Assembly (NCBI GenBank): GCA_018240585.1
Contig: JAFEFM010000112.1
Coordinates: 1 to 44,520, forward strand
From: Pseudomonadota bacterium
Lineage (GTDB): Bacteria; Pseudomonadota; Gammaproteobacteria; Burkholderiales; Rhodocyclaceae
Length of the DNA: 44,520 nucleotides
Direction: 5' to 3'
Every line of letters starts with the position of its first letter. Positions within the stretch are counted from its first letter, which is position 1. The notes beneath the pieces were generated by a model that saw nothing but the letters and a program-made list of their open reading frames with translations, made no database searches and was not told where the DNA came from. Below are positions 18,858 to 44,168 of this stretch, one piece after another. Made by a program: the position numbers and the translations under genes.

Positions 18858-18934
18858 GCGCCCGTAGCTCAGCTGGATAGAGTACTGCCCTCCGAAGGCA
18901 GGGGTCGGACGTTCGAATCGTCTCGGGCGCGCCA
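18858..18934 (+). tRNA. tRNA-Arg (anticodon CCG)
   Basis: A 77-base tRNA gene with encoded CCA. The acceptor stem GCGCCCG (18858-18864) pairs with CGGGCGC (18924-18930). The anticodon stem is CTGCC/GGCAG (18885-18889 and 18897-18901) with loop CTCCGAA, giving anticodon CCG at 18892-18894 for codon CGG. The T-loop GTTCGAATC is canonical. A TATATC about 43 bp upstream (18810-18815) may be its -10 box, but no clear -35 is seen. The tRNA stays intact although a mobile element is inserted right behind its CCA end. Confidence 0.96.
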
Positions 18935-20509: not shown

Positions 20510-20547
20510 GAGATTCTCCTTGGTGATTTGGGTTGTCGGATGCGCGA

Positions 20548-20811
20548 TCAGTAACGACACTTTGGCCGATCGTCGGCCTCCCCATCCGTCCAGTCAGCGA
20601 GCGCAAGAATTTCACTTTGGACGCTGGCGAACAGTTCGACCTCGCCGGGCAGAAGTGGAATGTCGTTCGGGATGTCGTGGAAGTGGATTCGAAGACTCTC
20701 CACGGCGAATTCTTCTAGCAGCCAGCACGCATAGCCGAGGCTGTCGAGCATCTCGATGGCACGAATCAGGCGGTCGGCGGCATCGTGTTCATGAATGGTT
20801 GCAGCGCTCAT
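20548..20811 (-). CDS. 87-aa acidic protein between relaxase and recombinase
   Basis: A small acidic protein starting MSAATIHEHDAADRLIRAIE and containing LDSLGYACWLLEEFAVESLRIHFHDIPNDIP. I do not recognise a family. Its ATG overlaps the relaxase stop as ATGA, and the recombinase GTG follows its stop by 38 bp, so it is co-expressed with both. Its size and position next to the integrase make it one candidate for a recombination directionality factor, but no motif supports this; a relaxase accessory role is equally possible. An open frame upstream of the ATG overlaps the relaxase and was discarded. Confidence 0.7.
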   Translation of the reverse strand: MSAATIHEHDAADRLIRAIEMLDSLGYACWLLEEFAVESLRIHFHDIPNDIPLLPGEVELFASVQSEILALADWTDGEADDRPKCRY

Positions 20812-21734: not shown

Positions 21735-22108
21735 GCAAGCAACTTCGCGAGCTGATTGATCAACCTTCGACAATCGTCGATCGCGGTGCTGAGATCGTTG
21801 CTGGCGTTCAGTCGCTGTTCGCGGTTTGCATGGCGGGCGATTTGATTCAAGTTGGAGCCAACTTTCCCCAGTTGCCCGGTTAGCTGCGCCAGCGCCTTGC
21901 GGTCTGGGGAGGGCAGCTTCTTGCGGGGGCGGCGAATCTTTGTCTCCAGCGCAGCTTGGAGCAAAACCGCGGATACCGACATGCCGAGGTCTTCGGCGAG
22001 CTTCGTGATCTGCACAGCTTCGGCGGGCAGCGCTCGGCAACGCAGCGTTATCGTGCGCCGACGCTTGTTCGAGCTCTTCTTTCGGGCGGGTTTTTCTTCG
22101 ACGGTCAT
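21731..22108 (-). CDS. MobC-like relaxosome accessory protein
   Basis: A 125-residue basic protein starting MTVEEKPARKKSSNKRRRTI. It has a predicted ribbon-helix-helix part (RTITLRCRALPAEAVQITKLAEDLGMSVSAV) and the MobC/NikA-type motif LTGQLGKVGSNLNQIARHAN. Such proteins bind oriT and help the relaxase open the strands. I chose the ATG at 22108, preceded by GGAGA, over one 42 bp upstream. Its stop overlaps the relaxase start. The candidate oriT lies just upstream. Confidence 0.85.
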   Translation of the reverse strand: MTVEEKPARKKSSNKRRRTITLRCRALPAEAVQITKLAEDLGMSVSAVLLQAALETKIRRPRKKLPSPDRKALAQLTGQLGKVGSNLNQIARHANREQRLNASNDLSTAIDDCRRLINQLAKLLA

Positions 22109-22150
22109 GTTGCTCTCCGGACGGTATTTCGCCAATGAGAGCAGCGACAA

Positions 22151-22517
22151 ATTTCAATGTAAACAAATGCATACGATAAATAATTGCACTTTCGTTATGC
22201 AAATCAGCGCTCATTCCAAAAGGTCCGCGTCCTGTGCGGAGATATCGGAATTGCGTTTTTCTCGACTGGTTGCGAAAAAGTCTTCTCATGCCTCGAAAGA
22301 AGTGCCTGGGGGATGCAAGGGGGTACCCCCCTTGCCGGGGATCGAACGGGGCCAGCGGCCCCTTCGCAAGCGTGCGGTGCGGTAGCACCGCGCATGGCTT
22401 GCCTGCCCGTTTCTTCCGGTTGCCCTACGGAAATCAGGGAGTAGGGGCTACATTGCAGCGGTCGGCAGCGGTGGAGCAGCGCCTCGCAACGCATGTCCGA
22501 CGGCCCTGCGCTACGGT
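22151..22517. other. Noncoding region upstream of mobC with candidate oriT
   Basis: No gene is supported here. It holds three strong inverted repeats close together. Two 9-base arms (GCAAGGGGG and its complement) flank TAC at 22315-22335. GGGGCC-AGC-GGCCCC lies at 22348-22362, and GCGGTGC-GGTA-GCACCGC at 22374-22391. This arrangement, directly in front of mobC-relaxase genes, is typical of an origin of transfer; the nick would lie beside one of the repeats. Bases 22151-22200 are AT-rich and may hold the mobC promoter, but no convincing boxes are seen. Confidence 0.6.
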
Positions 22518-28600: not shown

Positions 28601-29649
28601 AGTTCCGGGCGACCGACGCAGCGGCGGCAGGCGATGTGCGGACCGCCGGCGAACTCCTCGCACTCGTTCAGGAACGCATCGCGGTGCAGCGTGGGCTGTT
28701 CGGAAACCGAAGCAAGACGCCTATTTATGTGGTGCCGGTTGACGACCATGCGCCGTTGAAGGACCGCCCCCTGCGGGTGGCAATCGTTCAGCCAATGCGC
28801 CCTCGACGGGATGAGTTCGACGTGAAGGACCCGACACACTGGACTGCAGGGGTGTTGGCGGAACATAGGCGTCACTTGGCGGAGGTCTGCAGACTTGCCC
28901 ATCAGAAGCTCAAGACTTGGGCGTCAGCTGACACGGTGGCTACTGCCGAAAAGGATGGCGGTGAGCCCGTGGTCGACGTCATCTTGTTCCCTGAATTGGC
29001 GGTCCACCCAGAGCATCTATTCCTGCTGAGAAGGCTATCCGACAAGCTGCGGGCAAATATTTTCGCTGGGTTGACCTTCCTCCATTCGCATAAGGCAGGA
29101 GGCACTGTAAATCAGGGCTTGTGGCTGATTCGAACGGAGTCTCCCGGCCATGGACGGGCGTTCCAGTACGTGTGGCAGGGCAAGCACCACCCAATGAAGG
29201 ACGAGGTGCGCATGGGTGTAAAAGGCCATCGTCCGCATATTACGCTGGTCGAGCTTCCGATCGGCGCTAAGACTCGCACACGGATCGCGGCAGCGATCTG
29301 CTATGACGCCACAGACCTTGACCTCGTCGCTGACCTCCGCGATAGGTCGGACATGTTCCTGGTCGCTGCGTTGAACCAGGACGTGCAGACCTTCGACAAC
29401 ATGGTTGCAGCACTGCACTTCCACATGTACCAACCCATTGCGCTTGCCAACTCCGGCGAATTCGGCGGCTCGACGGCACAGGTTCCGCTTCCGAAGCATG
29501 AGCGCCTCATTGCGCATGTACACGGAAATCACCAAGTGGCTGTCAGTGTCTTCGAGGTTGATCCCTCGCTGTTCAAGTCGACGGCTCCTGCCAAGCCTTC
29601 AAAGACCTTAAAGGCACCGCCTGCGGGTTACCGAGGTCGCCCTATCTGA
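25672..29649 (+). CDS. Reverse transcriptase-nitrilase fusion, DRT type 1-like antiphage protein
   Basis: A 1325-residue protein that fuses an RT of the UG/Abi group to a C-terminal nitrilase. RT motif A is SLDIKSFFD (Asp254), motif B is LGLPQGLLASGFLAN and motif C is YVDD at 373-376. The nitrilase part at about 1030-1300 shows the catalytic triad region: Glu1108 (FPELAVHPE), Lys1171 or Lys1176 (QGKHHPMKDE) and Cys1210 (AAICYDATD). Large RT-nitrilase proteins are known as defence-associated reverse transcriptases (DRT1, UG1; the UG5 group is related). The start is taken as TTG at 25672, 8 bp after GGAG; GTG at 25678 or 25681 is possible. A helical middle region of about 600 residues joins the two enzymes. 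Confidence 0.9.
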   Translation: MSVVKEKYVELAPRGELLADVVVLAQAWKKTHSYIRRHNWYADVLEMDASTIDLEERLVLWTTEVSQGDFRPADLLLVPAPKNARWAFRSAPTITSVEDLLKLDLDSLGSDPTFDDWSPCAEGRSEPLKAGEVVTPPVQKLRPLAHLSIRDQTLATAVMMCLAEAVESAQGDTSGADVLAMRAQGVVSYGNRLHCTWDTRPDTRPQARFSWGNSRTYRQYFQDYRTFLARPRRVCAELTPQLGTRRELFVVSLDIKSFFDRVDRRALLNELRSLEAEHRRMHRLPEHSAADELFWARAARIFDWHWRDEDQKLAGMIVDDGATQLELGLPQGLLASGFLANAYLVRFDRDMRKAAADGAILGDDVRLLDYCRYVDDMRLVVEAKGGPGGLGQAAVLEHVKRYVSAALNAHCQRIDAQRTLELSTEKCLATSYRAISAQSHVSALMEMLNAELSGTFDLDSLAQAAGGLDGLLWMSEQIESAAEPKHSRLALATVAVPNTDVRDDTVKRFVATRIAQLMRHRLAMTDAESSAGSDEALSDRVTQGMVLAHEFESTARKLIKCWAENPALALLLRCGLDLFPHPRLLDPVAEALSVKLFDAPVLLDPAKQREVRVAEYVLADLFRAGAVETGFRDPEEYPEGVDIQGYREDMAALARRVLAELDASPWYLRQQARLYLASIGDVSLSAIPEPGAEVQSYVALQRAAMYEPVHGADLRDVIPLALVAQQLQPNAKRFGAWLSEGLRRTADEGIREHVVRTVSLNRPDLVVAALSGRKAPSWRKFVPSALAQSSRAASGSRRKAGTRKSVRPLLSLMSEQDNPFDQENGLLMLAAAVLRHPGVEALLSSGLSACDIVLRCEDWSRIPALPESNTFLTVESMAASEPVSPLYGNPPWVEPERAWLYGLGRILRSALTGEFDFTSRRFLVTEEVGRYRGLHSTWFKRRFGLFNSGRGLLDEPGPLSPWLSGFLSTLLQWPGVEFRATDAAAAGDVRTAGELLALVQERIAVQRGLFGNRSKTPIYVVPVDDHAPLKDRPLRVAIVQPMRPRRDEFDVKDPTHWTAGVLAEHRRHLAEVCRLAHQKLKTWASADTVATAEKDGGEPVVDVILFPELAVHPEHLFLLRRLSDKLRANIFAGLTFLHSHKAGGTVNQGLWLIRTESPGHGRAFQYVWQGKHHPMKDEVRMGVKGHRPHITLVELPIGAKTRTRIAAAICYDATDLDLVADLRDRSDMFLVAALNQDVQTFDNMVAALHFHMYQPIALANSGEFGGSTAQVPLPKHERLIAHVHGNHQVAVSVFEVDPSLFKSTAPAKPSKTLKAPPAGYRGRPI

Positions 29650-29887: not shown

Positions 29888-31972
29888 ATGGAGCTGGGTG
29901 ATTTTCGTGAAGAGCTTCTTGATGCGATTCAGGTTCGTCTGCCGGTCGACGCTACCAAGGAAGACCGAGACTTCGCTTTCTTGTGCGAGGTTAGCGAGCG
30001 GCTTACCCAGGCAGAGGAATTTCACGATCTGGTTCCAAGTCACTTTCGGGGTACAGGATCCAAGGGGCGTAAGCTCCGAGTCGACGGCTACGAGCTTGAC
30101 GATTCCGACGACTCCATCCGGTTGGTGATCGTAGAGTTTTCGGGGGCGGGCCAAGCAGAGGTTCTGTCGCGCACGCGTGCCGAGGCTCTTTTCGGCCAGC
30201 TCCAAGTATTTGTCGAAGACGCTCTTTCCGGAAAGATCTGGTCAAGTGTGCCTGACGGAATGGAGGACGGCCTCGAGCTCGCCGGAATGATCTCCGACAA
30301 GCACGCCGTCCTGGGGCGCTACCGGTTCTATCTGCTTACCGATGCTAACCTGAGCGAACGCGTCAAGGATTTGCCGCAGGGCGAAATTGACGGGCGTGCC
30401 ATCGAATATCACGTCTGGGATGTTGGCCGGCTGAACACGGTTTCCTCGTCCCCCTTTGGTGCCGAAGAGCTTGAAATAGACTTCACCCAGTTTGTTTCAG
30501 GGGGGCTTCCATGCCTGGCAGCAAGTCAGGCCGATGATTATCAGGGGTACCTTGCGGTGATTCCGGGCGAGGCGCTGGCACAGCTGTACGACAGCTATGG
30601 AAGCAAATTGCTGGAGGGTAACGTACGCTCCTACCTCAGTGCATCGGGGAAGATCAACAAGGGGATTCAAGGGACAATCCGCAAGGAACCGGAGCGGTTC
30701 TTTGTGTACAACAATGGCATTTCGGCGACTGCTACGTCGGCCTGCGTTGTGGAGACGCCTTTAGGGCATCGCCTAGTATCGGCGAGGTACTTCCAGATTG
30801 TTAACGGTGGGCAGACCACGGCGTCCCTGCATGTGGCGAAACGCAAGGACAATGCGGATCTCGAAGCCATCCATGTTCCGATGAAGCTTTCGGTCGTGAC
30901 TGCCCGGGATGCGGAAAAGCTGGATGACATGATCCAGAGCATCGCCATGTACTCGAACAAGCAGAACAAGGTCAGCGATGCCGACTTCTTCTCCAACCAT
31001 CCTTATCATCGGGCAATGGAGCGCCTTTCGCGAAGGATTCCAGCTCCTGCCGTAGAAGACGCTCAGTACCATACATACTGGTTCTATGAGAGAGCACGAG
31101 GTCAGTACCAGAACGAGCAGTCCGGTCTCACTCAGGCGCAGAAACGGGACTTCCTGCGTACCAATCCGCGGCCACAGCTGATCGTCAAGACGGATCTCGC
31201 CAAGTTCGAGAACTCCTGGCGGCAGCTGCCGCATGTCGTGAGCTTCGGGGCCCAGAAGAACTTCGCCAACTTTGCTGAGTATATTTGCGGCCAGTGGGGA
31301 GAGGATGGCCTGCTGTTCAACAACGACACCTATTTCAAGGAAGTCATCGCTAGAGCCATTCTGTTCCGGGCGGTAGAAAAGCTGGTCAGTGCGGCAGACT
31401 GGTACGAGGGAGGATATCGCGCCAACATCGTCACCTATTCGATCGCCAAACTTGCCAGCATGATCGCTCTTCAGAAGCCGGGGCATATCCTGAACTTCAG
31501 GGAAACCTGGACTCACCAAGCTATTTCCGAGCCCCTTGGAAATCAGTTGGAATCGATCGCGAAGGAGGTCGTGCAGGCGATCACGACGCCTCCGGTTAGC
31601 CAAATGAACGTCACCGAGTGGTGCAAGAAGAAGGAATGCTGGGAAAAGGTGCTGGCCTTGCCGATCAGGCTGACTGACGGTTTGACAGCCGAGCTCGTGT
31701 CCCCGGGCGAGGTACGCGACATCAATCGCGAGAAGCGCCAGCAGGGCGCTATGGACGGCGGAATTCACGCCGTTACGGACGTTATTCAGCGCGGGCCGGG
31801 GTATTGGGCAGCCATTCTCGATTGGGCCCGCAGGCACTCGCCAGTCTATGGCAAGGAAGCTGATCTTCTCAGAAATGCCTCAAAAAGTGGCTGGATCCCG
31901 ACACCCATGCAGGCAGCCTGCCTCATCAAGGTAAGTACCCGCCTCGAGGAAGAAGGATTCAAACGGGGCTGA
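29888..31972 (+). CDS. AIPR (abortive infection phage resistance) family protein
   Basis: The 694-residue protein has the AIPR domain at about 240-560, marked by FFVYNNGISATATS, FQIVNGGQTTASLH and YSNKQNKVSDADFFSN. The N-terminal part (KLRVDGYELDDSDDSIRLVIVEFSG) resembles the degenerate PD-(D/E)xK-like start of these proteins. AIPR proteins occur in phage-resistance islands, often with DNA methyltransferases, Vsr and Z1 ATPases; their activity is not established. AAGGA lies 7 bp before the ATG. It is the first gene of the eight-gene operon, and its stop is 31 bp before the next start. Confidence 0.88.
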   Translation: MELGDFREELLDAIQVRLPVDATKEDRDFAFLCEVSERLTQAEEFHDLVPSHFRGTGSKGRKLRVDGYELDDSDDSIRLVIVEFSGAGQAEVLSRTRAEALFGQLQVFVEDALSGKIWSSVPDGMEDGLELAGMISDKHAVLGRYRFYLLTDANLSERVKDLPQGEIDGRAIEYHVWDVGRLNTVSSSPFGAEELEIDFTQFVSGGLPCLAASQADDYQGYLAVIPGEALAQLYDSYGSKLLEGNVRSYLSASGKINKGIQGTIRKEPERFFVYNNGISATATSACVVETPLGHRLVSARYFQIVNGGQTTASLHVAKRKDNADLEAIHVPMKLSVVTARDAEKLDDMIQSIAMYSNKQNKVSDADFFSNHPYHRAMERLSRRIPAPAVEDAQYHTYWFYERARGQYQNEQSGLTQAQKRDFLRTNPRPQLIVKTDLAKFENSWRQLPHVVSFGAQKNFANFAEYICGQWGEDGLLFNNDTYFKEVIARAILFRAVEKLVSAADWYEGGYRANIVTYSIAKLASMIALQKPGHILNFRETWTHQAISEPLGNQLESIAKEVVQAITTPPVSQMNVTEWCKKKECWEKVLALPIRLTDGLTAELVSPGEVRDINREKRQQGAMDGGIHAVTDVIQRGPGYWAAILDWARRHSPVYGKEADLLRNASKSGWIPTPMQAACLIKVSTRLEEEGFKRG

Positions 31973-32003
31973 CGAGGCTGACCGGATAGACTTTGGGGGA
32001 GCC

Positions 32004-32975
32004 GTGGAATTTCCGGAGAGAATGCAGCTCCGCCGTCCGATCTTTCTTCAGGAGGGGGATGAAAATTTGCCTCTTCAGGACTGGTGCAAGGCGCTGGTCT
32101 GGTTCGGATGGTGGTGCCGACAGTATCAAATGGATGGGAGGCGGATTCTGGCGGTGGTCATCCTGCCTGCCCGCAGATACGCATCGGTCTTTGTCGGCCT
32201 TGGCTGTCTGCTGGCCGGGGCAACGCAGTTCCGTGGAGGGTTTTCCTGGGACGATCTTCAGAGCCTGCCGCCGGGTACCGAGATATTCTGGAAGACGGCA
32301 AGCCATGGCGTCCGATATCAGGGAACCATACTGGAGGGCAATGATGGTATCCCCGGTCTTGTCCGGGTCCGGATCACCAGCACGAGACGATCAAGCGAGG
32401 TCGGCTCTGTCTGGTACTTTTCACCGGCGAAGTTTGCGGAATGTCTTTTCAGCGAAGAATGTCTTCCCGCCGAGAAGGGAACTGCAGCCATAGACAATGC
32501 CCTGCGTTTTCATCGGGACCTTGGACTGGAAACGGACCCCAAGTGGATCTGGACTGCCGGTGCAGAGGGTCTGATTGTCACCAATCAGGCCGGCTTCAGG
32601 GAGGCAGTCAAGGGGCTGAATATTGCAGTAGGGACGCAGGCGCCGCTTCCACTAGGTGATGTTCTGTGCGCAGCCGGCATCCATGATAAATGCATTGCCA
32701 AGCTTAGGCTGGCTTCGTCCGGACGCGTTTCGGAGCATATCCATGCGCCGGTAACGGTATTGGATGGGGCGGCTGCTTGGGATCAGATGTCGCACGTTCA
32801 TACCGGCAACGTAGTCGTTCTGCTCGAGAGAACCGAATACACGGCAGACGTCCACAATGTTCTTCTGGAAGCTGCCGCTTATGCAGATGAACCGCCTGCC
32901 GACATCCGGCTGGACATACCGGGGCGTTTTCCTCCAGGCGTCGAGGCATCGACCTTCTTTCTGAGCGAGCGTTGA
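32004..32975 (+). CDS. Unknown protein A of the DISARM-like operon
   Basis: A protein of about 323 residues with no family I recognise. It starts at GTG 32004 after a GGGGGAG, or at ATG 32022 six codons on (GGAGAGA in front). Visible features are LPARRYASVFVGLGCLLAG, GVRYQGTILEGNDGIPGLVRVRI (a small beta domain) and VVVLLERTEYTADVHNVLLE near the end. There is no signal peptide or obvious nuclease or ATPase motif. Its stop overlaps the next start as TGATG. Conserved coupling suggests a structural or adaptor subunit of the system; that is inference. Confidence 0.75.
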   Translation: MEFPERMQLRRPIFLQEGDENLPLQDWCKALVWFGWWCRQYQMDGRRILAVVILPARRYASVFVGLGCLLAGATQFRGGFSWDDLQSLPPGTEIFWKTASHGVRYQGTILEGNDGIPGLVRVRITSTRRSSEVGSVWYFSPAKFAECLFSEECLPAEKGTAAIDNALRFHRDLGLETDPKWIWTAGAEGLIVTNQAGFREAVKGLNIAVGTQAPLPLGDVLCAAGIHDKCIAKLRLASSGRVSEHIHAPVTVLDGAAAWDQMSHVHTGNVVVLLERTEYTADVHNVLLEAAAYADEPPADIRLDIPGRFPPGVEASTFFLSER

Positions 32976-34540
32976 TGATTTCGGAAAGGTCGATTTTCGG
33001 GCAAACCACCCGGCAGTTCAGAAATGCTGCTGCATTGCGGGTGCGGGAAATCCCGATTGGCAGTCCTTGCGTTGCTGACGTTGTCCGAGTTTCACGTCGA
33101 ATATTGGCATGTCTCGATCGTTCAGACCCCTTTCAAGCGGCTCTCGCCAGGCGGGTCTGGAGTCTTCGAGCAAAGGTGCTTTTCACACTGCATCCTTTTC
33201 ACCATGCCGAGCTAGGGCTTCTGGCGAGCCTGGAGCAAATTGTCGGTGACGCGTCCCTGATTCCCTCGCTGGCTGACGCGGTTCGCGATCTTGTTCGATC
33301 CACCCACGCGCTACTGGAGTACCCGACCAACCCGAAGCTTGTTCGGATAAAAGCATTGCTGATTCCCGAAGCCGGTTGTCCTCCGGAATCGCGGGCAGGA
33401 ATCGTTGTCGCGATGGCGCTGGGACGGACATTCGGGTGGCCCGTGAAGCCGGACGGGATGCCGGATCTGCCCGGAGATCCCGTTATCATCGATTCGCGCA
33501 AGGCGCTCGCTTCGTCGGTGTTTGATCGGATCATCGTGCCGGGTGCCTGCCCCTACCTGTCACCCCAGATGTTTATCGACCTCTTCTATCAGGGGCGAGC
33601 TGGTGAAATCAATGTTCTCCTTTACCCAGGAGAATATTTCGTTCTGCGGGAAAGACCGACTCTGCCGGATAGTTCAGTATTTCGCGGCAGGCTGACCACA
33701 ACACGCGTGCTTTGCAGCCGAGAGAGCGTTGGCGAAGCAGCGGACGGAGAAGGGGATGCCCACGGGCAGCGCGAGGAGAGCGCTTGGGACATTGCGCATG
33801 ACGGTCAAAGGGCGCCACTCCCTGATCATCGTGCTGCCCGCTTCGTCCTCTTCCGCGATGCTCGTGGACTTTTCGTTCCGGAGGGAGCCCATCTCCTGGT
33901 CTGGAGGGCAGACAGCTCTGCGGAAGAAAGCGACTTGGAAAGCCTCCCCGTGGACAGGTTGTCCGAAGGGGACTGGCTTGTCCTGCGACCAAGTGGGACG
34001 CGCTATCTGCTCGATGTCGAGTCGGCCGAGGAGGGCTTCGGTCAGAAAATGGAGGAAGCCTGCGACTGGCGTCCCGCCTTGGAAAGGTTGTTGCTGACCC
34101 GGAGTCCGGAAGAGATCGCCGAAGAGATGCGCGCCGTCGGCGCAAGCGGGCGTTCTCTTTCCCAGAGCCTTCGGCAATGGGCTGATGGGGCGGTGTATGG
34201 CCCCGGTCACAGGGCCGAGCTTGCGGCGCTTCTCCACGTGCTGTCGAATCACAAGAAAATCGCCACCCCGGCCAGCATGGATGAATACGTGACCGCTCAC
34301 TGGAACGGGCTTCAGGAATTGCGAGGCATCCGCCAGCGTGCTGCACAGGTTGTACGGCGGGAAATCTGCAGTCAGCTCTCGAATGCCCTTGGCCGTTTGA
34401 AGGCACTGCCCGAAGACGGGGCTGTGGCTCTGGAAAACGGTGTCAGGGTTCAGCTGTGCCAAGTGGCAGCCGTGGACGACCAGAGGGCATGGGTTCCCCC
34501 GGCGCGTCTGATGGACCTGCAGCCAATGAAAGGAATCTGA
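32975..34540 (+). CDS. Unknown protein B, possibly DrmE-like
   Basis: A 521-residue protein starting MISERSIFGQTTRQFRN at an ATG that overlaps the previous stop. The middle part has a Rossmann-like alternation ending IIVPGACPYLSPQMFIDLFYQGRAGEINVLLYPGEYF. A linker follows, then GDWLVLRPSGTRYLLDVES. The C-terminal domain reads like an HTH-type segment: SPEEIAEEMRAVGASGRSLS, then RQWADGAVYGPGHRAELAAL. This layout reminds me of DrmE, a DISARM protein of unknown function, but that is a memory of pattern and not an alignment. The position directly upstream of helicase and DrmA-like genes supports it. Confidence 0.7.
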   Translation: MISERSIFGQTTRQFRNAAALRVREIPIGSPCVADVVRVSRRILACLDRSDPFQAALARRVWSLRAKVLFTLHPFHHAELGLLASLEQIVGDASLIPSLADAVRDLVRSTHALLEYPTNPKLVRIKALLIPEAGCPPESRAGIVVAMALGRTFGWPVKPDGMPDLPGDPVIIDSRKALASSVFDRIIVPGACPYLSPQMFIDLFYQGRAGEINVLLYPGEYFVLRERPTLPDSSVFRGRLTTTRVLCSRESVGEAADGEGDAHGQREESAWDIAHDGQRAPLPDHRAARFVLFRDARGLFVPEGAHLLVWRADSSAEESDLESLPVDRLSEGDWLVLRPSGTRYLLDVESAEEGFGQKMEEACDWRPALERLLLTRSPEEIAEEMRAVGASGRSLSQSLRQWADGAVYGPGHRAELAALLHVLSNHKKIATPASMDEYVTAHWNGLQELRGIRQRAAQVVRREICSQLSNALGRLKALPEDGAVALENGVRVQLCQVAAVDDQRAWVPPARLMDLQPMKGI

Positions 34541-36303
34541 TGGCAAGAATGATCCCTCCGGATTGCCCGCCGGATACCCCTACGGGCGAAGCAATCCTCT
34601 TCAACAAGCTGAGGACCGATCCAGGAACAGAGGGATGGATCGTTCTGCACTCGCTGGAGCTCCGGAAGCACCGAACGAAGTCCGAGGGTGAGATCGATAT
34701 GGTGATTCTTGCGCCTGGCTTGGGAGTGCTCTGCTTGGAAGTGAAAGGCTGCGACGTTTCACGCCGTGACGGGCTATGGATCTATCCTTACGGAACCTCG
34801 GCCGAGGGGCCATTCCGTCAGGCATCCAGAGCCATGCATTCGCTGAGGGACTATGTCCAGGCGAGAGACTCATCGCTGGAAAACCTTCTGTTTTTTTCGG
34901 CTGTGGCTTTCACCCGGATCGACTTCGGCGAGGATTCGCCGGAATGGCATTCGTGGCAGATCATCAACAGTCTGACGTTGGCAAGGATGCCGATCTCGCT
35001 GATCGTGAGCCGAATATTCGATCGCGCCCATCAGCACATTTCCTCGAGGCCAGTCTGCCGATCATGGTACGACGCCTGCAGAAGCCGTCCGACTCACGAT
35101 CAGGTGCGGCGAATGGCGGGGCTGCTGCGTGGCAACTTCGAATGTTTCGTACAACCGAGAAGCGACGTTCAGCATATCGAGGAGTCCCTGCTCAGGCTGA
35201 CGCAGGAACAATATGATGCGCTGGACGCCATTCAGGACAACGAGCGTGTAGTCGTCAAGGGCCTGGCGGGTACCGGCAAGACCTTTCTCGTGATGGAGGC
35301 CGCCCGAAGAGCCGTGGCAGAAGGGAAGCGAACGCTGGTTCTCTGCTTCAATCGGCTGCTTGGCGACTGGATGAGGGTTTCGATGAATGCCGCGCTCGGG
35401 GACTCCGGCAGGCTGCTTCGCTGTCAGCATCTACACGGACTGATGCGGGAGGTCGTCGGCGACAGGCTGAAGGTCCGGAATGACCAGCAGTTCTGGTCGA
35501 ATGACCTGCCAGCAGCAGTCATTGAACGGCTGCTCGGCGACAGCTGCACATTGCCCCAGTTCGACGTCCTGTTGGTTGATGAAGCGCAGGATCTCCTGAC
35601 CGATGACTACATGGACGTTCTCGATCTCCTGGTTGCTGGCGGTCTGGCCGGCGGACAGTGGGCGCTTTTCGGGGATTTCGAACGCCAGGCGATCTACCTC
35701 TCTGGCGGTGCCCAAACCGCTTCGGACATGCTGGTCGCGCTCCGCTCGCGGGCTCCAGCCCATGCGAATTTCACGCTGCGCATCAATTGCAGAAATGCCG
35801 GCCCGATTGCCGAAATCCTGACCCTGGCCTGCAGCATCAAGCCCGGCTACAGCCGATTCCTGCACGACATGGATGGTGCCAGTGTCAATCCCCGGTTCTG
35901 GAGCGACGGGCAGGGGCAGCAGCGTCTGCTGGACGATGCCCTGAGCGAGCTTCGCAAGGCTCTTGATCCCGAAGAAATAGCCGTTCTCTCGTTGAGTGCA
36001 GACGAGAAAAGCTGTGCAGCAGAGCTGCCAGCAGGAGGGCGAAACAGGCTTGTGCCCTTTCGTGAGGTCGGTCGCTCTCAAAAAGGCTGCGTGAGGTATG
36101 CCAGTGTGCATGCCTTCAAGGGACTCGAGGCCGCAGGAGTTGTCATCACGGATATCGAGCGCATGGACGAGCACGCCCGAGCGCTTCTGTATGTCGGTAT
36201 GTCGAGGGCCAGGGTACGGCTCGTGCTGCTCATGCACGAGGACTGCCGCGCTGAATATGACCGGATGCTCGAAGCGGGTTTGGCTCTGACCACAGGGATG
36301 TAG
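34540..36303 (+). CDS. NERD nuclease-domain SF1 helicase
   Basis: A 587-residue protein. Residues of about 10-130 form a NERD (nuclease-related) domain with the PD-(D/E)xK pattern: GEAILF (Glu), EGEIDMVILAPG (Asp) and LCLEVKGCDV (Glu-x-Lys). A UvrD-like superfamily 1 helicase follows: motif I KGLAGTGKTFLVME, motif Ia LCFNRLLGDW, motif II LLVDEAQDLL, motif III FGDFERQAIY and motif VI LYVGMSRARVRLVLL. All key residues are present, so a nuclease-coupled translocase is likely. The ATG at 34540 overlaps the previous stop (TGATG), with AAGGA six bases before it. Such a gene is not part of standard DISARM. Confidence 0.88.
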   Translation: MARMIPPDCPPDTPTGEAILFNKLRTDPGTEGWIVLHSLELRKHRTKSEGEIDMVILAPGLGVLCLEVKGCDVSRRDGLWIYPYGTSAEGPFRQASRAMHSLRDYVQARDSSLENLLFFSAVAFTRIDFGEDSPEWHSWQIINSLTLARMPISLIVSRIFDRAHQHISSRPVCRSWYDACRSRPTHDQVRRMAGLLRGNFECFVQPRSDVQHIEESLLRLTQEQYDALDAIQDNERVVVKGLAGTGKTFLVMEAARRAVAEGKRTLVLCFNRLLGDWMRVSMNAALGDSGRLLRCQHLHGLMREVVGDRLKVRNDQQFWSNDLPAAVIERLLGDSCTLPQFDVLLVDEAQDLLTDDYMDVLDLLVAGGLAGGQWALFGDFERQAIYLSGGAQTASDMLVALRSRAPAHANFTLRINCRNAGPIAEILTLACSIKPGYSRFLHDMDGASVNPRFWSDGQGQQRLLDDALSELRKALDPEEIAVLSLSADEKSCAAELPAGGRNRLVPFREVGRSQKGCVRYASVHAFKGLEAAGVVITDIERMDEHARALLYVGMSRARVRLVLLMHEDCRAEYDRMLEAGLALTTGM

Positions 36304-36306
36304 CTC

Positions 36307-39300
36307 ATGCCACTCGAAGAAAATCTGAAGAACAGGAAGTGGTTGCTTGAGCGGATTCGGGCGGAGGTCGTCGGCCCCGATCCTGCCGGTGATCCGGTTG
36401 TTCCGCCTGAAGCCACGCAACTGGCAAAGGTCAGCTGGGATGAGTTTCGCAAACCGCGACGTCAGACTGACGGCGAGGAGGTGCTCTGGCAGGATCCCCC
36501 GACGAAGCGGTACGGTGCCGGGATTCTCTATCCTGCGGGAATGCTCCAGGCCGAAGAGGCGGGTAATCTGGGAAATGGCGACGAATCAGCCAAGGAGCCG
36601 CCGATCCGGGAGCCCGAGGTGGACGAGAAACTGTTGTCCGAGAACGAGAGGCTGGGAGGGCGAAGCGCCAAGGCGGACGATTCCGAGGACTACGACGTTA
36701 CACTGGCCAATGCCTTCCGTCCGTCGGCCATTGGATTGAGCTTCCTTGCGGACCTCGAGCGAGAAAGGGAAGGATTCAGGGTAGAACTGGTCAGCGTCGG
36801 CAGGCTCGGAGCCGAAGACTTTTCGCAGACCCCGACTGCCATCTATCGAAAAGTCGTCCAGAAAGTTGGAGACATCGAAGGCAAGGAATTCGACCGGACC
36901 ATCTGGCTGCGCAAGCGTCTCGTAAATGGTGACGGCTCGCTTCTCTCGGTCACGTTCCGAGGGGATGAGCTGCAAGGCACAGGCGGAGCACCGCTGCGAG
37001 TGCGTCTTCCCGGATACGAGGACATCGAGGTGGTCGTGGTCTCTCGTCCTTGGGGGGACCCGGAATTCCGTCATGCGAGGCGCCTCATGACGGTCTCGCT
37101 TATCAACCGGAAGGAGATGGATGCTGGCAGTGTCGACGGGCTGTGTATCTTTCAGGCGGGACTGAGGATCAGCGGGCTGAGCTCAGTCAACTGGATCGTT
37201 CCTTATCCGGATCATGCTCCGGACGCTCTCATGCATGACGTGCTTTCCGACGAAGCCGTCAACCGCCTGCTGTACCGGGAGCGTCAGACCTATGCTATCG
37301 GTCACGGATGTGCCGCGGACTGGGCAGGGATGCCGCTCGAAGGCACCGGAGCAATATGGAGCGACGTACTGCCCGCATTCGAGACGCCGTCTACCACGGC
37401 GGAACTCGAGGTCGTCCAGCCCGACGGCAGCATCAGGAAGCTCCGGGTAAGCATGCGGAAGCTGGCCGGCCTCGATCCTGAAGACGACGGCTTCCGGGAA
37501 CTGCAGGAACTCGTCGAGGCCTACGCGAAGTGGATAGACGGGCTCGAGTGTGAGAGAACGTCAGTGCCGCGGGTTCCCACGGCTCTCGAACCGACGGCGC
37601 GTGGCCTGATCGAACGCTGCAGACTCTGCCTGGACAGGATCCGGGATGGCCTGCTCCTGCTGCGCGAAGACTCCGAGGTCGCAAGGTTCGCGCAGGAGGC
37701 CTTCCGTCTGGCCAACCATGCAATGCTCATTGCCCAGCTGAGAACCAGCAGCATGGTACGTGTACCCGTGCCGGGGGAGGAGGGCAAACTGTGCTGGACG
37801 CCTCCCATCGCCAGTCCCGACCCGACTGTTGCCGATCCGACCCGCGGATATTGGCGTCCTTTCCAGATTGCCTTTCTCCTCATGTCCCTGCGCGGCATCT
37901 GTGATCCTCGGCATGCCGATCGCGATGTGGTGGATCTGATCTGGTTCCCCACCGGCGGGGGAAAAACGGAGGCCTATCTTGGACTGACCGCGTTTACGAT
38001 CTTCTTCAACCGCCTTTCCGGCCGTGTGCCCGGCGGAGTCGACGTTCTGATGCGCTACACCCTGCGCCTATTGACGGCACAGCAATTCCAGCGAGCTGCT
38101 CTGCTGTTCTGCGCCATGGAACACCTGCGTCGTCGGAATGCCACGCTTGGCGAGAAAGCGTTCCGGCTGGGGCTGTGGGTCGGAAGTGCGACCACTCCGA
38201 ACAAGCGCTCTGAAGCTGTCAGATTGTTGAGCCTTCTCGAGAAGGACCCAACCGCTGAAAACCCGTTTGTCCTGCTGAAGTGTCCTTGGTGCGGGGCGCG
38301 GTTCGGACCTCGTGAGTCAGGCACCGCAAAAAGCACCGGAAAATCACCTTCCGTGACAGGATACTATCGGCATCGGACCGGGACATCCGAAACGGTAGTC
38401 TATCGATGCCCGGACCAAGCGTGCGAATTCGGGAAGGCCCCACCGCTGGGCAAGTCGCGCGATCCGCTACCGGTCGTCGTCATTGACGAGGATCTCATCG
38501 AGGCGCCGCCCAATCTGCTGATCGGCACCGTGGACAAGTTCGCCATGCTGGCCTGGAAACCGGAGTTGAGGCGATTCTTCGGTATCGAGAATGACGGGCA
38601 GCACCGGCATGAGCCTCCCTCGCTCATCATCCAGGACGAATTGCATCTGATCTCCGGTCCCCTCGGGACGATGGTTGGGGCCTACGAAATAATCATCGAC
38701 CGGCTGTGCCGGGAACACGGCGTCGGGATACTCGGCCCGAAGATCGTGGCTTCTACGGCCACGATCAGTCGCGCCAGCGAACAGATTGCCCATCTCTATG
38801 CGCGGGATTCGGTCCTGCTGTTTCCCCCGTCAGGTCTGGAAGCCGGCGATTCGTTCTTTGCCAAGGAGGATCGCCATCCGGACGGCAGCTTCAAGCCGGG
38901 GCGCCTATACATCGGCGTGATGGCCCCGGGGCACGTGTCCCTGCAGACTACTCAAGCTCGCGTTTTCGCCTCCCTGATGCAGAACGCGGCAATCATGGAC
39001 ACGGATGCTGCCGGTCGGGATCCCTGGTGGACATTGCTGTGTTTCTTCAACTCGCTGCGCGAACTGGGCAGCGCCGCTACCCTGTTCGTCGCCGACGCCA
39101 GGGACTATCTGCGAGTGATCATCGACCGTATGGGCATCAGCTATGAAAAGATCCGGAGTCCGTTTGCCACCGAGCTGACCAGCCGGATCAGAAGCGATGA
39201 CATTCCCAAGGAACTGGCTCGACTCGAGCTGCCGTATAGCGCGGAGAGGCTACGGAGTCGCGACTCGTCCGGCAGCGATCGTCCGGTCGACGTGTGCCTC

Positions 39301-39975
39301 GCCTCCAACATCATCGAAGTCGGCGTGGACATTCCTCGCCTGTCACTTATGGCGGTTGTAGGCCAGCCGAAGACCACTTCCCAGTACATTCAGGTGTCGA
39401 GTCGGGTCGGACGGGATCGGGACAAGCCGGGTCTGGTAGCTGTCCTGTACGGTCAGAGCAAGCCTCGCGACCGCAGTCACTATGAGCGCTTCCGCAGCTT
39501 TCACCAGCGACTTTACGCGCAAGTCGAACCTACCAGCGTTACACCGTTCAGCCTGCCGGCAGTCGATCGGGCACTGCATGGGGTCATCGCCGCTGCCGTA
39601 CGCCAGCTCGGGGAACTGGAAAGGGAGGGGATTCATCCCGATCCTTTCCCGCTTGCGGAAGGGACTCAGCTACGAGAGATCGTTAGGGAAATGATCCGCG
39701 ATCGCGTTCGGTTCGTGGCACCCGACGAGGAATCGACGGTCATGGAGCGTCTGGAAAGACGGCTGAACGAATGGCGGGCCTGGAATCCCGCCGAGTACGG
39801 CGGATTCGGAACGCTCCCAGAGCATCCTCCTCTCATGCATCCGGCTGGGGCAACGCCTCCTGCCGACTGGAACGGCCACAGCTGGCCGACACTTTCGTCT
39901 CTCCGCGATGTGGATTCCAGCTGTGAAGCAGAAATCACAACGTGGTTCAATCGCGCTGCGGAGGAACCGGCATGA
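36307..39975 (+). CDS. drmA: DISARM-type helicase DrmA-like
   Basis: A 1222-residue SF2 helicase. Walker A is PTGGGKTEAY with Lys553, the DEXH box is QDELH at 776-780, and motifs V-VI are SNIIEVGVDIPRLSLM and QVSSRVGRDRD (about 1029-1039). Two cysteine pairs between the ATPase motifs (Cys659/662 in CPWC and Cys701/706 in CPDQAC) may bind zinc. In DISARM, DrmA forms a complex with the DUF1998 protein DrmB that binds unmethylated DNA with 5' overhangs. The neighbouring DrmB-like gene overlaps it by four bases. Length and order match DrmA. A DruE-like helicase is less likely, because that family carries DUF1998 in the same chain. Confidence 0.87.
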   Translation: MPLEENLKNRKWLLERIRAEVVGPDPAGDPVVPPEATQLAKVSWDEFRKPRRQTDGEEVLWQDPPTKRYGAGILYPAGMLQAEEAGNLGNGDESAKEPPIREPEVDEKLLSENERLGGRSAKADDSEDYDVTLANAFRPSAIGLSFLADLEREREGFRVELVSVGRLGAEDFSQTPTAIYRKVVQKVGDIEGKEFDRTIWLRKRLVNGDGSLLSVTFRGDELQGTGGAPLRVRLPGYEDIEVVVVSRPWGDPEFRHARRLMTVSLINRKEMDAGSVDGLCIFQAGLRISGLSSVNWIVPYPDHAPDALMHDVLSDEAVNRLLYRERQTYAIGHGCAADWAGMPLEGTGAIWSDVLPAFETPSTTAELEVVQPDGSIRKLRVSMRKLAGLDPEDDGFRELQELVEAYAKWIDGLECERTSVPRVPTALEPTARGLIERCRLCLDRIRDGLLLLREDSEVARFAQEAFRLANHAMLIAQLRTSSMVRVPVPGEEGKLCWTPPIASPDPTVADPTRGYWRPFQIAFLLMSLRGICDPRHADRDVVDLIWFPTGGGKTEAYLGLTAFTIFFNRLSGRVPGGVDVLMRYTLRLLTAQQFQRAALLFCAMEHLRRRNATLGEKAFRLGLWVGSATTPNKRSEAVRLLSLLEKDPTAENPFVLLKCPWCGARFGPRESGTAKSTGKSPSVTGYYRHRTGTSETVVYRCPDQACEFGKAPPLGKSRDPLPVVVIDEDLIEAPPNLLIGTVDKFAMLAWKPELRRFFGIENDGQHRHEPPSLIIQDELHLISGPLGTMVGAYEIIIDRLCREHGVGILGPKIVASTATISRASEQIAHLYARDSVLLFPPSGLEAGDSFFAKEDRHPDGSFKPGRLYIGVMAPGHVSLQTTQARVFASLMQNAAIMDTDAAGRDPWWTLLCFFNSLRELGSAATLFVADARDYLRVIIDRMGISYEKIRSPFATELTSRIRSDDIPKELARLELPYSAERLRSRDSSGSDRPVDVCLASNIIEVGVDIPRLSLMAVVGQPKTTSQYIQVSSRVGRDRDKPGLVAVLYGQSKPRDRSHYERFRSFHQRLYAQVEPTSVTPFSLPAVDRALHGVIAAAVRQLGELEREGIHPDPFPLAEGTQLREIVREMIRDRVRFVAPDEESTVMERLERRLNEWRAWNPAEYGGFGTLPEHPPLMHPAGATPPADWNGHSWPTLSSLRDVDSSCEAEITTWFNRAAEEPA

Positions 39976-42113
39976 ACCGGCCGATTCGCAGGACGCAAGC
40001 CATCGCCCCTTTCGGGCCGGGCGCGATGGTGGATTTTCCGGGTCCCGTTTCCCTCATTCACGCCGGCCTTGATGCTTGGCCTTTCGATGAAGGAAACCCG
40101 GAACACCGGGAGTTCCGTATCGATGACGAGAAGCGGCTTGCGAGGCGGCTCGACGTTGATTTCTTCGTGCAGCCGCCCGATTTCCGGCGGCCGGAGCGCA
40201 ACGGCGGTCAGCAGCACAACCTGAACCTCACACTGCCTTTTTTGCGTTTTCCTCTGTGGCATGTCTGTCCGCGGTGCGGGAGGATGCACAAGGGGCAGTA
40301 TCATCACCGTGATGCCCCGATCTGCGAAGGTCCGATCGCGACAGGGAGCGATGCCGGAAAGAAACACCCTCGACGGAAGACGTTCCAGGTGCGTTTCATT
40401 GCTGCCTGCCGCAGGGGCCACATCCAGGATTTTCCCTGGGTGGACTGGATATTCGAAGGTAAGGCCGCGGGGTGGGAACCGGACGGGGTCGACCGCTGGC
40501 TCCGCATGACAAGTTCCGGCAGCGCGTCGCTGGCCGGTGTGGCCGTACAGGCGGAAGAGCGGGCCGAGGACGGGCGAACCCGGGTGGTCAAAAGGCGTAC
40601 TCTTGCAGGCGCGTTCAATACAGAAACGGATCCGGCTGGTGGCGCAGACGTGAGGACCGCTCTAAGCCGCCTTGGAACGGAATGCGTCGGCATCAACCCG
40701 GTCCTGGCAATCGGCACGGCCGCCCGGCCAGCACCGAACAACTGTGGCCAGCCGCTGTTTGCGCTGCTGAAGAGCGCGGCCAACCTCTATTTCCCGTCGG
40801 TTGTCAGCTCCATCTACATACCCGACATCAAGGACGATTCTCTGCCGCAGGAAGTGCTGGATCTGCTCGACGATCGGGATGTCAGGAATAGGCTGCGAGA
40901 GGGGGCCCTGGACTCCGAGAACGGACTCGTCACGGTCCGATCGGCCGCCAACGCCTTGAAGAGGTATCACCCTGAATCGACGATCAGCGCTGAAACCTTG
41001 GCTCAGGCTGCCAACCAGCATCTGCTGCATGGCATCCTCCTCGGAGATCGAAAGATCAAGGCATTTCTCGATCAGCGAATGAAGACGGCTCCCGACGGCA
41101 TCCTGCCTGTGGGCGCGGTGGAGGCGGCGGCAAAAAACCTGAATTGGAACATCGATCCCCTGCTGCTGGTGGATGCACTCCGAGCAGCCTTTTCCGGAGA
41201 ATCCGGGCAGCGGGATGCAGCCGGTCCAGCCGCGGAAGGTGAGGAGGCGAGCTATCGCCAGCAGGAATACTCGGTCTTCTCACGCGATTTGCAGATAGGA
41301 TATCCTAAGACGGATCTGGACATCCGAGGTGCCGATGTCTCGGAGTACGGGCCACTCGTTTCCAACGCGTTCTGCAGAGTTGCTCTCCTTCACAAGCTGC
41401 GCGAGACCCGGGCATTCGAAGGTTTTTCGCGAATTTATGCCTCGGGTTTAACACGGGGCGAACAGCGCCAGTTGTTCGTGGATTCGCCGAAGCGCTGGCT
41501 GCCGGCCATCGTGGTTCGGGGGGAAGGAATCTTCCTTCAGTTCGCGGAGAGCCGATTGCAGCAGTGGATGGATCGTGTCGGTGTTGACCTTGACGGCCGC
41601 TTGGCATTGATACGAAAGAACCTTGACGCCTTGGCGAGCCGTCGGCATGAAGAGGCGAGGGCCGTTTCTCCCAGATTTGTCCTGCTGCACACCTTTGCCC
41701 ACCTGCTGATCAATCAGCTGGTCCAGGACTGCGGATATGGTTCTGCTTCGCTCAGGGAACGTATCTATTCGGCGGACGGGGAAAGGCCAATGGCCGGCGT
41801 CCTGATCTACACAGCCGCAGGGGACTCGGAAGGTACAATGGGTGGCTTGGTGCGCATGGGCCAGCCGGACCGACTGGAAGCGGTCATCAGAAGGGCTCTG
41901 GAAAAGGCTCGCTGGTGCTCGACCGACCCCGTCTGCATCGAGAGTCGGGGACAGGGGCCGGATAACTGCAATCTGGCCGCCTGCCACTCGTGCGCTCTAT
42001 TGCCCGAAACCTCTTGCGAGGAGCAGAACCGCCTGCTGGATCGCGGCGTGGTCATTGGAACAATCGAGAATCCACACATTGGTTTCTTTGCTTCTGAAGT
42101 AGCTCATACGTGA
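39972..42113 (+). CDS. drmB: DUF1998 protein DrmB-like
   Basis: A 713-residue protein starting MNRPIRRTQAIAPFGPGAMV, the usual beginning of DrmB proteins. Zinc-like cysteines occur at Cys99/Cys102 (CPRCGRMHKG) and Cys146 (ACRRGHIQDF). The DUF1998 domain at about 555-700 has LLHTFAHLLINQLVQDCGYG, GVLIYTAAGDSEGTMGGLVR and a cysteine-rich end beginning at Cys649 (CSTDPVCIESRGQGPDNCN). The ATG overlaps the drmA-like stop as ATGA and has GGAGG seven bases before it. It probably partners the helicase to sense or load on foreign DNA, as in known DISARM. Confidence 0.87.
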   Translation: MNRPIRRTQAIAPFGPGAMVDFPGPVSLIHAGLDAWPFDEGNPEHREFRIDDEKRLARRLDVDFFVQPPDFRRPERNGGQQHNLNLTLPFLRFPLWHVCPRCGRMHKGQYHHRDAPICEGPIATGSDAGKKHPRRKTFQVRFIAACRRGHIQDFPWVDWIFEGKAAGWEPDGVDRWLRMTSSGSASLAGVAVQAEERAEDGRTRVVKRRTLAGAFNTETDPAGGADVRTALSRLGTECVGINPVLAIGTAARPAPNNCGQPLFALLKSAANLYFPSVVSSIYIPDIKDDSLPQEVLDLLDDRDVRNRLREGALDSENGLVTVRSAANALKRYHPESTISAETLAQAANQHLLHGILLGDRKIKAFLDQRMKTAPDGILPVGAVEAAAKNLNWNIDPLLLVDALRAAFSGESGQRDAAGPAAEGEEASYRQQEYSVFSRDLQIGYPKTDLDIRGADVSEYGPLVSNAFCRVALLHKLRETRAFEGFSRIYASGLTRGEQRQLFVDSPKRWLPAIVVRGEGIFLQFAESRLQQWMDRVGVDLDGRLALIRKNLDALASRRHEEARAVSPRFVLLHTFAHLLINQLVQDCGYGSASLRERIYSADGERPMAGVLIYTAAGDSEGTMGGLVRMGQPDRLEAVIRRALEKARWCSTDPVCIESRGQGPDNCNLAACHSCALLPETSCEEQNRLLDRGVVIGTIENPHIGFFASEVAHT

Positions 42114-43684
42114 TACCTGTAATTGATCTTTTTGCCGGACCGGGGGGGCTGGGCGAGGGTTTCGGCTCTCTGCGAGACAGTTCCGGAACGATGGTGTTTG
42201 ATATCCGATCGTCGTTCGAGAAGGAGCGCGTCGCACATCGGACTCTCGAGCTCAGGGCGTTCTATCGCGCCTTCGGTCATCCAGACGAGGTGCCGGACGA
42301 ATACTATTCCTACCTTCGCAACGGAATTGGCCGTGATGAACTGCTCGGGAACGAGCGTTTCAGAAGCCAAGCCGAGCGAGCTCGAAAAGAGGCCCATTGC
42401 TCCGAACTGGGCGTGACGCCTTCAGAACAAATCGATCAGATCATCGCTGATGCACTTAAAGACGATCAGCCTTGGGTTCTGATTGGTGGTCCGCCATGCC
42501 AAGTCTATTCCGTCGTCGGACGTTCACGCTGGAGAGGCAAGGATATCGAGAAGTTCGAAAGTGACCATCGTCACTTCCTTTACCGGGAATATCTTCGAAT
42601 CATCCAAAAATTCCGTCCAGCCGTTTTCGTGATGGAGAACGTGCGGGGAATCCTTTCCTCAACGCATGGCGGCAGTCCTATTTTCAGACGGATTCTGGAG
42701 GATCTCTCTAACCCGTATCCGGGGTTGCGTTACCAGATTCGGTCGTTGAACCACAATCAGGACGAGGTGATCGACGATCCGATGAAGTTCTTGGTTCGGG
42801 CTGAGAACCACGGTCTACCTCAGGCACGGCACCGAGTAATGCTTTTCGGCGTGCGGGAGGATATCTCAGAGCGCCGCCACCAACCGTTGGTTCGCAAGCC
42901 TGCCATTTCGGTCATTCAAGCGATAGCTGACTTGCCTGCAATTCGAAGCGTGATTTCTCGGGGAGGCGATTCGTTTGAAAGTTGGTCGACTGTCTTCCAC
43001 GAACTGATTGAGATCCTCAGACGAACCGCTCCAGAGCAGATCGAATTCGTCGCTGAAATGCTTGAAGCAACCAATGCAAAGGAGAGGATCCCACCTTCAC
43101 CGGGTGGGAAATTTATTCCACATGTTGGCTTAGATCGGGGAAAGATATCTCCGGCTTTGGCGGACTGGGTACATGACGCAAGACTTGGCGGGGTTTGCCA
43201 TCACGACGCGAGAGGGCACATGCGTAGCGACCTGCATCGTTATCTCTATGCTGCATGCTATGCCAAGAAGTACAACACTTCGCCAAAGGTTGACGAGTTG
43301 CCCTTGGGGCTACTACCCGACCACGAGAATGTGTTTTCACCGAAGGTTCCCTTCAGGAACCGATTCCGCGTTCAGTTAGAGAAGGACCCTTCTACCACCA
43401 TCGTTTCGCATATTGCCAAGGACGGCCACTACTACATTCACTACGACCCTGCTCAGTGCCGCAGCCTGACGGTTCGTGAGGCTGCTCGACTGCAGACTTT
43501 TCCCGACAACTATTTTTTTGAGGGCGCGCGAACAGAACAGTATTGGCAGGTTGGAAATGCTGTGCCGCCTCTGCTTGCGCAGCAGGTTGCTGGCTCGGTT
43601 TACAGCTTGCTTCAGAACAAAGATAGCGCTTCAGTGCGAGTAACTCAAGAATTGACCGATCCGGTTCCAGGATTCTGTGCATAG
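42110..43684 (+). CDS. DNA cytosine-5 methyltransferase (DrmMII/Dcm-like)
   Basis: A 524-residue C5-cytosine methyltransferase. It shows motif I IDLFAGPGGLGEGF, motif IV GGPPCQVYSVVGRSR with the catalytic Cys130, motif VI VMENVRGIL, motif VIII LPQARHRVMLFGVR and motifs IX-X REAARLQTFPDNYFF and QVGNAVPPLLA. It starts at a GTG overlapping the drmB-like stop (GTGA). In class 2 DISARM such an enzyme (DrmMII) marks host DNA as self. The recognition site cannot be read from sequence; the adjacent Vsr gene hints at a CCWGG-type target. Confidence 0.93.
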   Translation: MIPVIDLFAGPGGLGEGFGSLRDSSGTMVFDIRSSFEKERVAHRTLELRAFYRAFGHPDEVPDEYYSYLRNGIGRDELLGNERFRSQAERARKEAHCSELGVTPSEQIDQIIADALKDDQPWVLIGGPPCQVYSVVGRSRWRGKDIEKFESDHRHFLYREYLRIIQKFRPAVFVMENVRGILSSTHGGSPIFRRILEDLSNPYPGLRYQIRSLNHNQDEVIDDPMKFLVRAENHGLPQARHRVMLFGVREDISERRHQPLVRKPAISVIQAIADLPAIRSVISRGGDSFESWSTVFHELIEILRRTAPEQIEFVAEMLEATNAKERIPPSPGGKFIPHVGLDRGKISPALADWVHDARLGGVCHHDARGHMRSDLHRYLYAACYAKKYNTSPKVDELPLGLLPDHENVFSPKVPFRNRFRVQLEKDPSTTIVSHIAKDGHYYIHYDPAQCRSLTVREAARLQTFPDNYFFEGARTEQYWQVGNAVPPLLAQQVAGSVYSLLQNKDSASVRVTQELTDPVPGFCA

Positions 43685-43694
43685 CCCCAAAGTG

Positions 43695-44168
43695 ATGGTG
43701 GACATAGTCGGCAACGCAACTCGGTCGAGGATGATGGCTGGAATCAGGGGTAAAAATACTCGCCCTGAGATTGCCGTCCGCCGTTTTCTCCATGGCAAAG
43801 GATTCCGTTTCCGTTTGCATGAGAAATCTCTTCCGGGAAAGCCTGATATTGTTCTTCCTAAATGGAAGGTCGTGATCTTTGTTAATGGATGCTTCTGGCA
43901 CCAACATCCCGGGTGTCGTTTCGCCACTAGACCTGCGACTAACGCGAAGCGTTGGCAGCACAAGTTTGAGCAGAACATCGCTCGCGATCGTCGCAACGTT
44001 TCCGAGATCCTTGCATTGGGGTGGCGAGTCGTTGTGCTGTGGGAGTGCGGTTTGAGATCCGTGCTGGGGGTGGGCGAAAGCCTGACATGGTTAGATGAAT
44101 CGATTCGGTCGACAGACGGTCCGGTCTTAGTCGAGTGGCCGGAGCTTGGTGGTGTCGCTCGTGAATGA
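43695..44168 (+). CDS. vsr: Very short patch repair endonuclease Vsr
   Basis: Vsr nicks DNA at T:G mismatches formed when 5-methylcytosine deaminates in methylase sites. With the ATG at 43695 the protein has 157 residues, and its active-site numbering matches the E. coli enzyme: Asp51 (PGKPDIVLP), Phe67-Trp68 and His69 (GCFWHQH), and the conserved ARDRR. A GTG at 43677, overlapping the methyltransferase, could also start it. At positions 63-64, where E. coli has Thr-His, this protein has Val-Asn. It is the last gene of the operon. Confidence 0.9.
   Translation: MVDIVGNATRSRMMAGIRGKNTRPEIAVRRFLHGKGFRFRLHEKSLPGKPDIVLPKWKVVIFVNGCFWHQHPGCRFATRPATNAKRWQHKFEQNIARDRRNVSEILALGWRVVVLWECGLRSVLGVGESLTWLDESIRSTDGPVLVEWPELGGVARE

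Follow-up and report, generated by a model that had tools for sequence, protein, structure and literature searches.

An eight-gene Rhodocyclaceae locus that looks like an undescribed relative of DISARM

Contig JAFEFM010000112.1 of a Pseudomonadota bacterium from the family Rhodocyclaceae (GCA_018240585.1), analyzed over its whole length of 44520 bases and referred to as the window, carries eight genes which, judged by their sequences, seem to constitute an as yet undescribed DISARM-related anti-phage system, in which another predicted DNA-cutting enzyme is present in the absence of the usual one and a protein has been added from a different restriction-type system. An earlier note on the window had proposed an undescribed DISARM subtype in which a NERD domain replaces DrmC, and AIPR and Vsr have been joined to the DISARM core. 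The analysis supports this proposal in part. The relationship to DISARM, the conservation of the locus and the presence of a NERD-helicase without a DrmC match were borne out; the defining features of class 2 DISARM were found only in part, and AIPR scored under the MzaE cut-off. The locus is a real, conserved and rare DISARM-related system, with some hallmarks of class 2 present and others missing.

Gene content and conservation of the locus

Coordinates and families confirm eight open reading frames on the same strand, as described before (Table 1). Pfam and PADLOC name six of them (AIPR, NERD-SF1 helicase, DrmA, DrmB, C5 methyltransferase and Vsr); the other two, A and B, have no Pfam or PADLOC match at E 0.001. 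All five junctions given in the earlier note proved correct when read from the sequence: TGATG between A and B (32973-32977) and between B and NERD (34538-34542), 3 bp between NERD and DrmA, ATGA between DrmA and DrmB (39972-39975) and GTGA between DrmB and the methyltransferase (42110-42113). AIPR and A are separated by a 31-bp gap; the methyltransferase overlaps Vsr if the latter starts at GTG 43677, and a 10-bp gap results from the start ATG 43695.

Class 2 DISARM consists of DrmMII, DrmE, DrmA, DrmB and DrmC. The locus shares with it a DrmA-/DrmB-like pair, a DrmMII-like C5 methyltransferase and a DrmE-like C-terminal region in B, but differs in having no detected DrmC, in the additional A, NERD-helicase, AIPR and Vsr, and in a DrmA which stays under the curated cut-off and forms a clade of its own. 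This DrmA matches PADLOC (1.1e-205, 683 bits) and the DrmA structure 7s9v in PDB (3.4e-140), scores 860 bits against NCBIfam DISARM_DrmAS (cut-off 950) and falls into a clade of eight rows in a DrmA tree whose deeper forks are weak. DrmB, with 392 bits against NCBIfam DrmB_fam (cut-off 240), qualifies as a DISARM DrmB, and the methyltransferase, with DrmMII as best PADLOC model (295 bits) and intact motifs, as the DrmMII of class 2. Neither of the class 1 genes, DrmD and DrmMI, was matched between a point 13 kb upstream of DrmA and the end of the contig.

The full set occurs together in four genomes and in three arrangements, which argues that the grouping is more than chance. A scan of genome contigs with B yielded a single confirmed relative, L002 from a Sulfuricellaceae metagenome-assembled genome, with all eight genes in the order and strand of the window at 51-79% identity. 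B is present in two of 101 genomes, a set made up of the window's genome and relatives of it. One is the window's own and the other is G097, which consists of a single contig and belongs to another family; in G097 all eight lie inside approximately 15 kb in a rearranged form: Vsr and methyltransferase forward, AIPR reversed, and A-B-NERD-DrmA-DrmB forward. With the NERD-helicase as query (E up to 1e-30), four of 399 genomes of the order were identified, namely the window's, G097, G814 and G654. G814 shows a third arrangement of all eight (AIPR reversed, A-B-NERD-DrmA-DrmB forward, Vsr reversed, methyltransferase forward), and G654 has NERD, DrmA, DrmB, methyltransferase and Vsr without any match to AIPR, A or B. 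The search for the gene order in other genomes, which the earlier note had suggested, gave the same order in L002, while G097 and G814 are rearranged, though they keep all eight genes together.

The full set is rare. With the single B sequence, the window's genome was found alone among 369 of the class; with a B profile, G814 was found alone among 12 genomes of its family and G097 alone among 64 of its own. No tblastn match to the window's B was obtained in plasmids and phages, though three of these plasmid records proved to carry distant homologues in a later profile comparison. Viral contigs gave no match to B, and none to AIPR in a scan that detects close relatives only.

For all eight genes pN is lower than pS in three pairs of loci, with pS saturated or nearly so in most. 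Between the window and L002, A and B share 51-52% identity, AIPR, NERD, DrmA and DrmB 68-79%, the methyltransferase 67% and Vsr 59%. The corresponding values for methyltransferase and Vsr in G097 and G814 are 45% and 55%, against 79-86% for AIPR, NERD, DrmA and DrmB, which suggests that the methyltransferase-Vsr pair has been exchanged.

Table 1. Genes of the locus and neighboring features of the window
Feature	Position	Strand	Length and evidence
AIPR family protein, AIPR_N and AIPR domains	29888..31972	+	694 aa; PF10592, 4.7e-93
Unknown A	32004..32975	+	323 aa; no known family
Unknown B	32975..34540	+	521 aa; DrmE-like C-terminal region, residues 293-471
NERD nuclease domain, PD-(D/E)xK (D53, E67-x-K69), and SF1 helicase	34540..36303	+	587 aa; NERD and UvrD_C_2
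DrmA-like SF2 helicase	36307..39975	+	1222 aa; PADLOC, PDB, NCBIfam
DrmB-like, DUF1998/MZB Zn domain	39972..42113	+	713 aa from ATG 39972; PADLOC 7.1e-69
C5-cytosine DNA methyltransferase, DrmMII-like	42110..43684	+	524 aa; PADLOC DrmMII 2.5e-88
Vsr-type endonuclease	43677..44168	+	163 aa (alternative start ATG 43695); 3.3e-29
DRT type 1a (DRT1), UG1 reverse transcriptase with nitrilase domain	25672-29649	+	PADLOC Drt1a, 1397 bits; directly 5' of the eight genes
tRNA-Arg	18858-18934	+	overlapped by the end of the recombinase gene
Large serine recombinase gene	18872-20560	-	
Further gene of putative mobilizable element	20811-22388	-	

The NERD-helicase and the absence of DrmC

A DrmC profile was built from seven DISARM loci, and frames of at least 60 codons were scanned. 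None matched in the window, in accordance with the earlier note, which had seen no DrmC in any frame; a DrmC elsewhere in the locus, which the note itself had named as speaking against its proposal, was found neither there nor in the stretches examined of L002, G097 and G814. As the window's contig stops 352 bases after Vsr, the absence beyond that point rests on the stretches of the relatives.

The relation between the two putative nucleases was followed across further DrmAB loci. On plasmids, 17 of 86 records with a DrmA match, picked non-randomly by rank and interest, and seven of 18 records with a NERD-helicase match, an overlapping sample, were viewed; at the level of the order, all 12 genomes with a DrmA match among the 399 were included. 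The latter comprise three full sets, the G654 NERD set without AIPR, five genomes with DrmC (G207, G721, G606, G086 and G574), G512 with DrmB, methyltransferase, Vsr and a shortened DrmA frame, and two whose contigs end too early (G564 and G700, the latter with a DrmMI fragment).

NERD-helicase, DrmA and DrmB occur together in 12 loci: the window, L002, G097, G814, G654, Rhodococcus opacus pROB02, Deinococcus gobiensis P4, Azospirillum ramasamyi, Rhizobium ruizarguesonis, R. rhizogenes, Shinella sp. PSBB067 and D. psychrotolerans, whose NERD-helicase spans the record start and which is hence counted here. Not one of the 12 has DrmC in the stretches examined, nor does a NERD-helicase exceed 300 bits in any of seven DrmC loci, two of which give a helicase match of 37 bits. 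C5 methyltransferase and Vsr accompany ten of the 12 NERD loci, at distances up to approximately 14 kb, as opposed to none of the seven DrmC loci, again in the stretches examined. Most of the loci were used in profile building; Shinella, D. psychrotolerans and the G654 methyltransferase and Vsr were not, and yet they matched. The order A-B-NERD-DrmA-DrmB also occurs in D. psychrotolerans (A 6e-22, B 1.5e-13), which belongs to the Deinococcota, and in the Actinomycetota member R. opacus, whose A match is weak and partial. In all 11 aligned loci the NERD residues D53, E67 and K69 and the Walker A and B motifs are kept, which we take to be the nuclease and helicase motifs.

By analogy with DISARM DrmAB, the system probably acts by methylation-guided restriction, in which DrmAB would be the motor and the NERD-helicase the nuclease. 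PMC9142583 reports activation of DISARM DrmAB by DNA bearing a 5' overhang, and an ATPase that responds to unmethylated DNA more strongly than to 5mC DNA.

Several points weigh against a NERD-helicase standing in for DrmC in such a system. According to the same paper, DrmC did not co-purify and is apparently non-essential in DISARM, and its absence therefore need not call for a replacement. The mutual exclusion of NERD-helicase and DrmC tracks DrmA clades, so that few independent events underlie it, and in one DrmC locus (L055) the stretch examined starts at DrmA. In A. ramasamyi and D. psychrotolerans, the stretches examined show neither C5 methyltransferase nor Vsr. The stretch of Nostoc sp. 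HK-01 contains A, B, DrmA and DrmB but shows no NERD-helicase and no DrmC. All four genomes with the full set encode phospholipase D (PLD) proteins elsewhere. Finally, A has no known family and, aligned by profile against three full-length DrmE-like or DrmE-placed proteins, shows no match (E 0.27).

Eight further DrmA loci have neither NERD-helicase nor DrmC in the stretches examined; a C5 methyltransferase is present in three of them and Vsr in none. In L028, L029 and L033, class 2-like loci with no DrmC found adjoining DrmA-DrmB, proteins of 792-864 aa precede this pair, two of the three with a DrmE_C signal and one of these above the cut-off. G512 carries a partial locus (L053, 13964-19495) with the shortened DrmA frame, a DrmB 59% identical to the window's, C5 methyltransferase and Vsr; NERD, A, B and AIPR were unmatched within the 35 kb examined. 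Restriction genes of other kinds lie near some NERD loci: NaeI in R. opacus, MvaI/BcnI in R. ruizarguesonis, and in D. gobiensis and R. rhizogenes a DUF2357 gene, which in D. gobiensis includes PD-(D/E)XK, together with a hypothetical protein. D. psychrotolerans encodes a PLD-domain anti-phage protein about 7 kb past DrmB, with no match to the DrmC profile. In Leisingera sp. S132 (L014, 5713-14728) a NERD-helicase stands beside a 2094-aa DEAD helicase, without DrmAB.

Unknown A and B and alternative nucleases

B is DrmE-like in its C-terminal region: residues 293-471 align to positions 618-793 of the 838 in NCBIfam NF038316 (DrmE_fam; E 3e-9, 35.7 bits, cut-off 80). The Pfam model DrmE_C matches weakly in all three B proteins scanned (best 4e-4), and at E 0.001 it detects the window's B alone among 299 genomes of the phylum and, of 14 control genomes, Haloferax volcanii. 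The B homologue of Nostoc sp. HK-01, which follows a transposase and an A homologue and precedes DrmA (homology of A and B by profile), exceeds the DrmE_C cut-off (28.2 vs 27). A has homologues in the other three full loci, Nostoc sp. HK-01 and D. psychrotolerans, and a weak partial one in R. opacus. PADLOC models found nothing in A or B, and searches of solved structures gave no significant match for B (best E 0.7), A (1.5) or AIPR (0.097).

Since A and B total 844 aa, close to the 838 of DrmE_fam, they may be a split DrmE, with A as N-terminal and B as C-terminal half. The locus would then be a true class 2 DISARM with a NERD-helicase in the place of DrmC, a tentative reading consistent with the position at which B aligns, the score of the Nostoc protein and the DrmMII-like methyltransferase. 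It is countered by the failure of A to match DrmE, by a DrmA below the cut-off and by the PADLOC definition of DISARM type II, which requires DrmC and DrmE and whose models miss A and B. Moreover, the rows that have a full-length DrmE-like protein in front of them fall outside the clade of the window's DrmA, as far as the weak deeper forks allow.

A second nuclease source would be a host PLD protein encoded elsewhere and working with DrmAB in trans, a role that PMC9142583 proposes in the case of DISARM, with the NERD-helicase as accessory. We consider this unlikely. Candidates exist besides the general presence of PLD proteins in the four genomes: in the window's genome, which has them on other contigs, a frame on G000:C22 reaches 67 bits with the DrmC profile, and a PLD protein on C490 reaches 29 bits. 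However, 12 of 14 control genomes have PLD matches as well, the C22 frame carries two PLD domains, as do cardiolipin synthases, and the active site of NERD is conserved. G097 has three PLD matches at 3.84 and 4.44 Mb, the locus lying at 0.38-0.39 Mb, so that the nearest is approximately 0.4 Mb away if the contig is circular; the Sulfuricellaceae genome has PLD matches on six contigs and none on C144, which bears its locus.

AIPR, Vsr, related systems and surroundings

AIPR scores 366 bits against MzaE (cut-off 1050) and is thus homologous to the MzaE of Mza (mzaABCDE) but of another group. Each of the four full-set genomes has one AIPR match, at this locus. In its AIPR_N region, which we assume to be PD-(D/E)xK-like, D...(E/D) is kept, but S, G or D replaces the lysine of ExK in all four, and for this reason AIPR is not claimed to be a restriction endonuclease. 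It could instead be an effector of abortive infection, killing the host or rendering it dormant rather than cutting phage DNA. The family name and the opposite transcription of AIPR in G097 and G814, as a separately controlled effector could show, are in line with this idea, to which we give little credence.

The PD and FxxGCFWH blocks of Vsr (FVNGCFWH in the window) are kept in six of six aligned proteins, and the PPCQ and ENV motifs of the methyltransferase in four of four. In a comparison system sharing AIPR and a C5 methyltransferase, Vsr was present in three of five loci examined, and its methyltransferases intermix with those of the locus in one tree. The locus also resembles ARMADA, TALON and Druantia (PMC12458937) in the YprA-family helicase, TALON in its NERD nuclease and ARMADA in its fused Vsr domain. 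In contrast to these three, the locus follows DISARM in encoding DrmA and DrmB separately, and none of the BrxHII-like and PglX-like genes of ARMADA or the TPR-CSD and TBP genes of TALON was among the Pfam and PADLOC matches of the eight genes.

A defence island in which a relic of C5 methyltransferase, Vsr and AIPR merely lies beside a DrmAB cassette unrelated to it, as the DRT1 system and mobility genes in the window might suggest, is highly improbable and is refuted by the conservation of all eight genes together in four genomes and in three arrangements, with no DRT1 match in the stretches examined of the other three loci. DRT1 had been considered as part of the unit, the best PADLOC model for the NERD-helicase being RTasNERD-Hel, and was rejected for the latter reason.

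Beyond the large serine recombinase gene follow genes for a MobA/VirD2-type relaxase, AAA and T5orf172 proteins. No second element boundary, in the form of a directly repeated tRNA-Arg 3' end, was found in the window. The tRNA-Arg/recombinase/relaxase region resembles a mobilizable element, which could carry both DRT1 and the eight-gene system.
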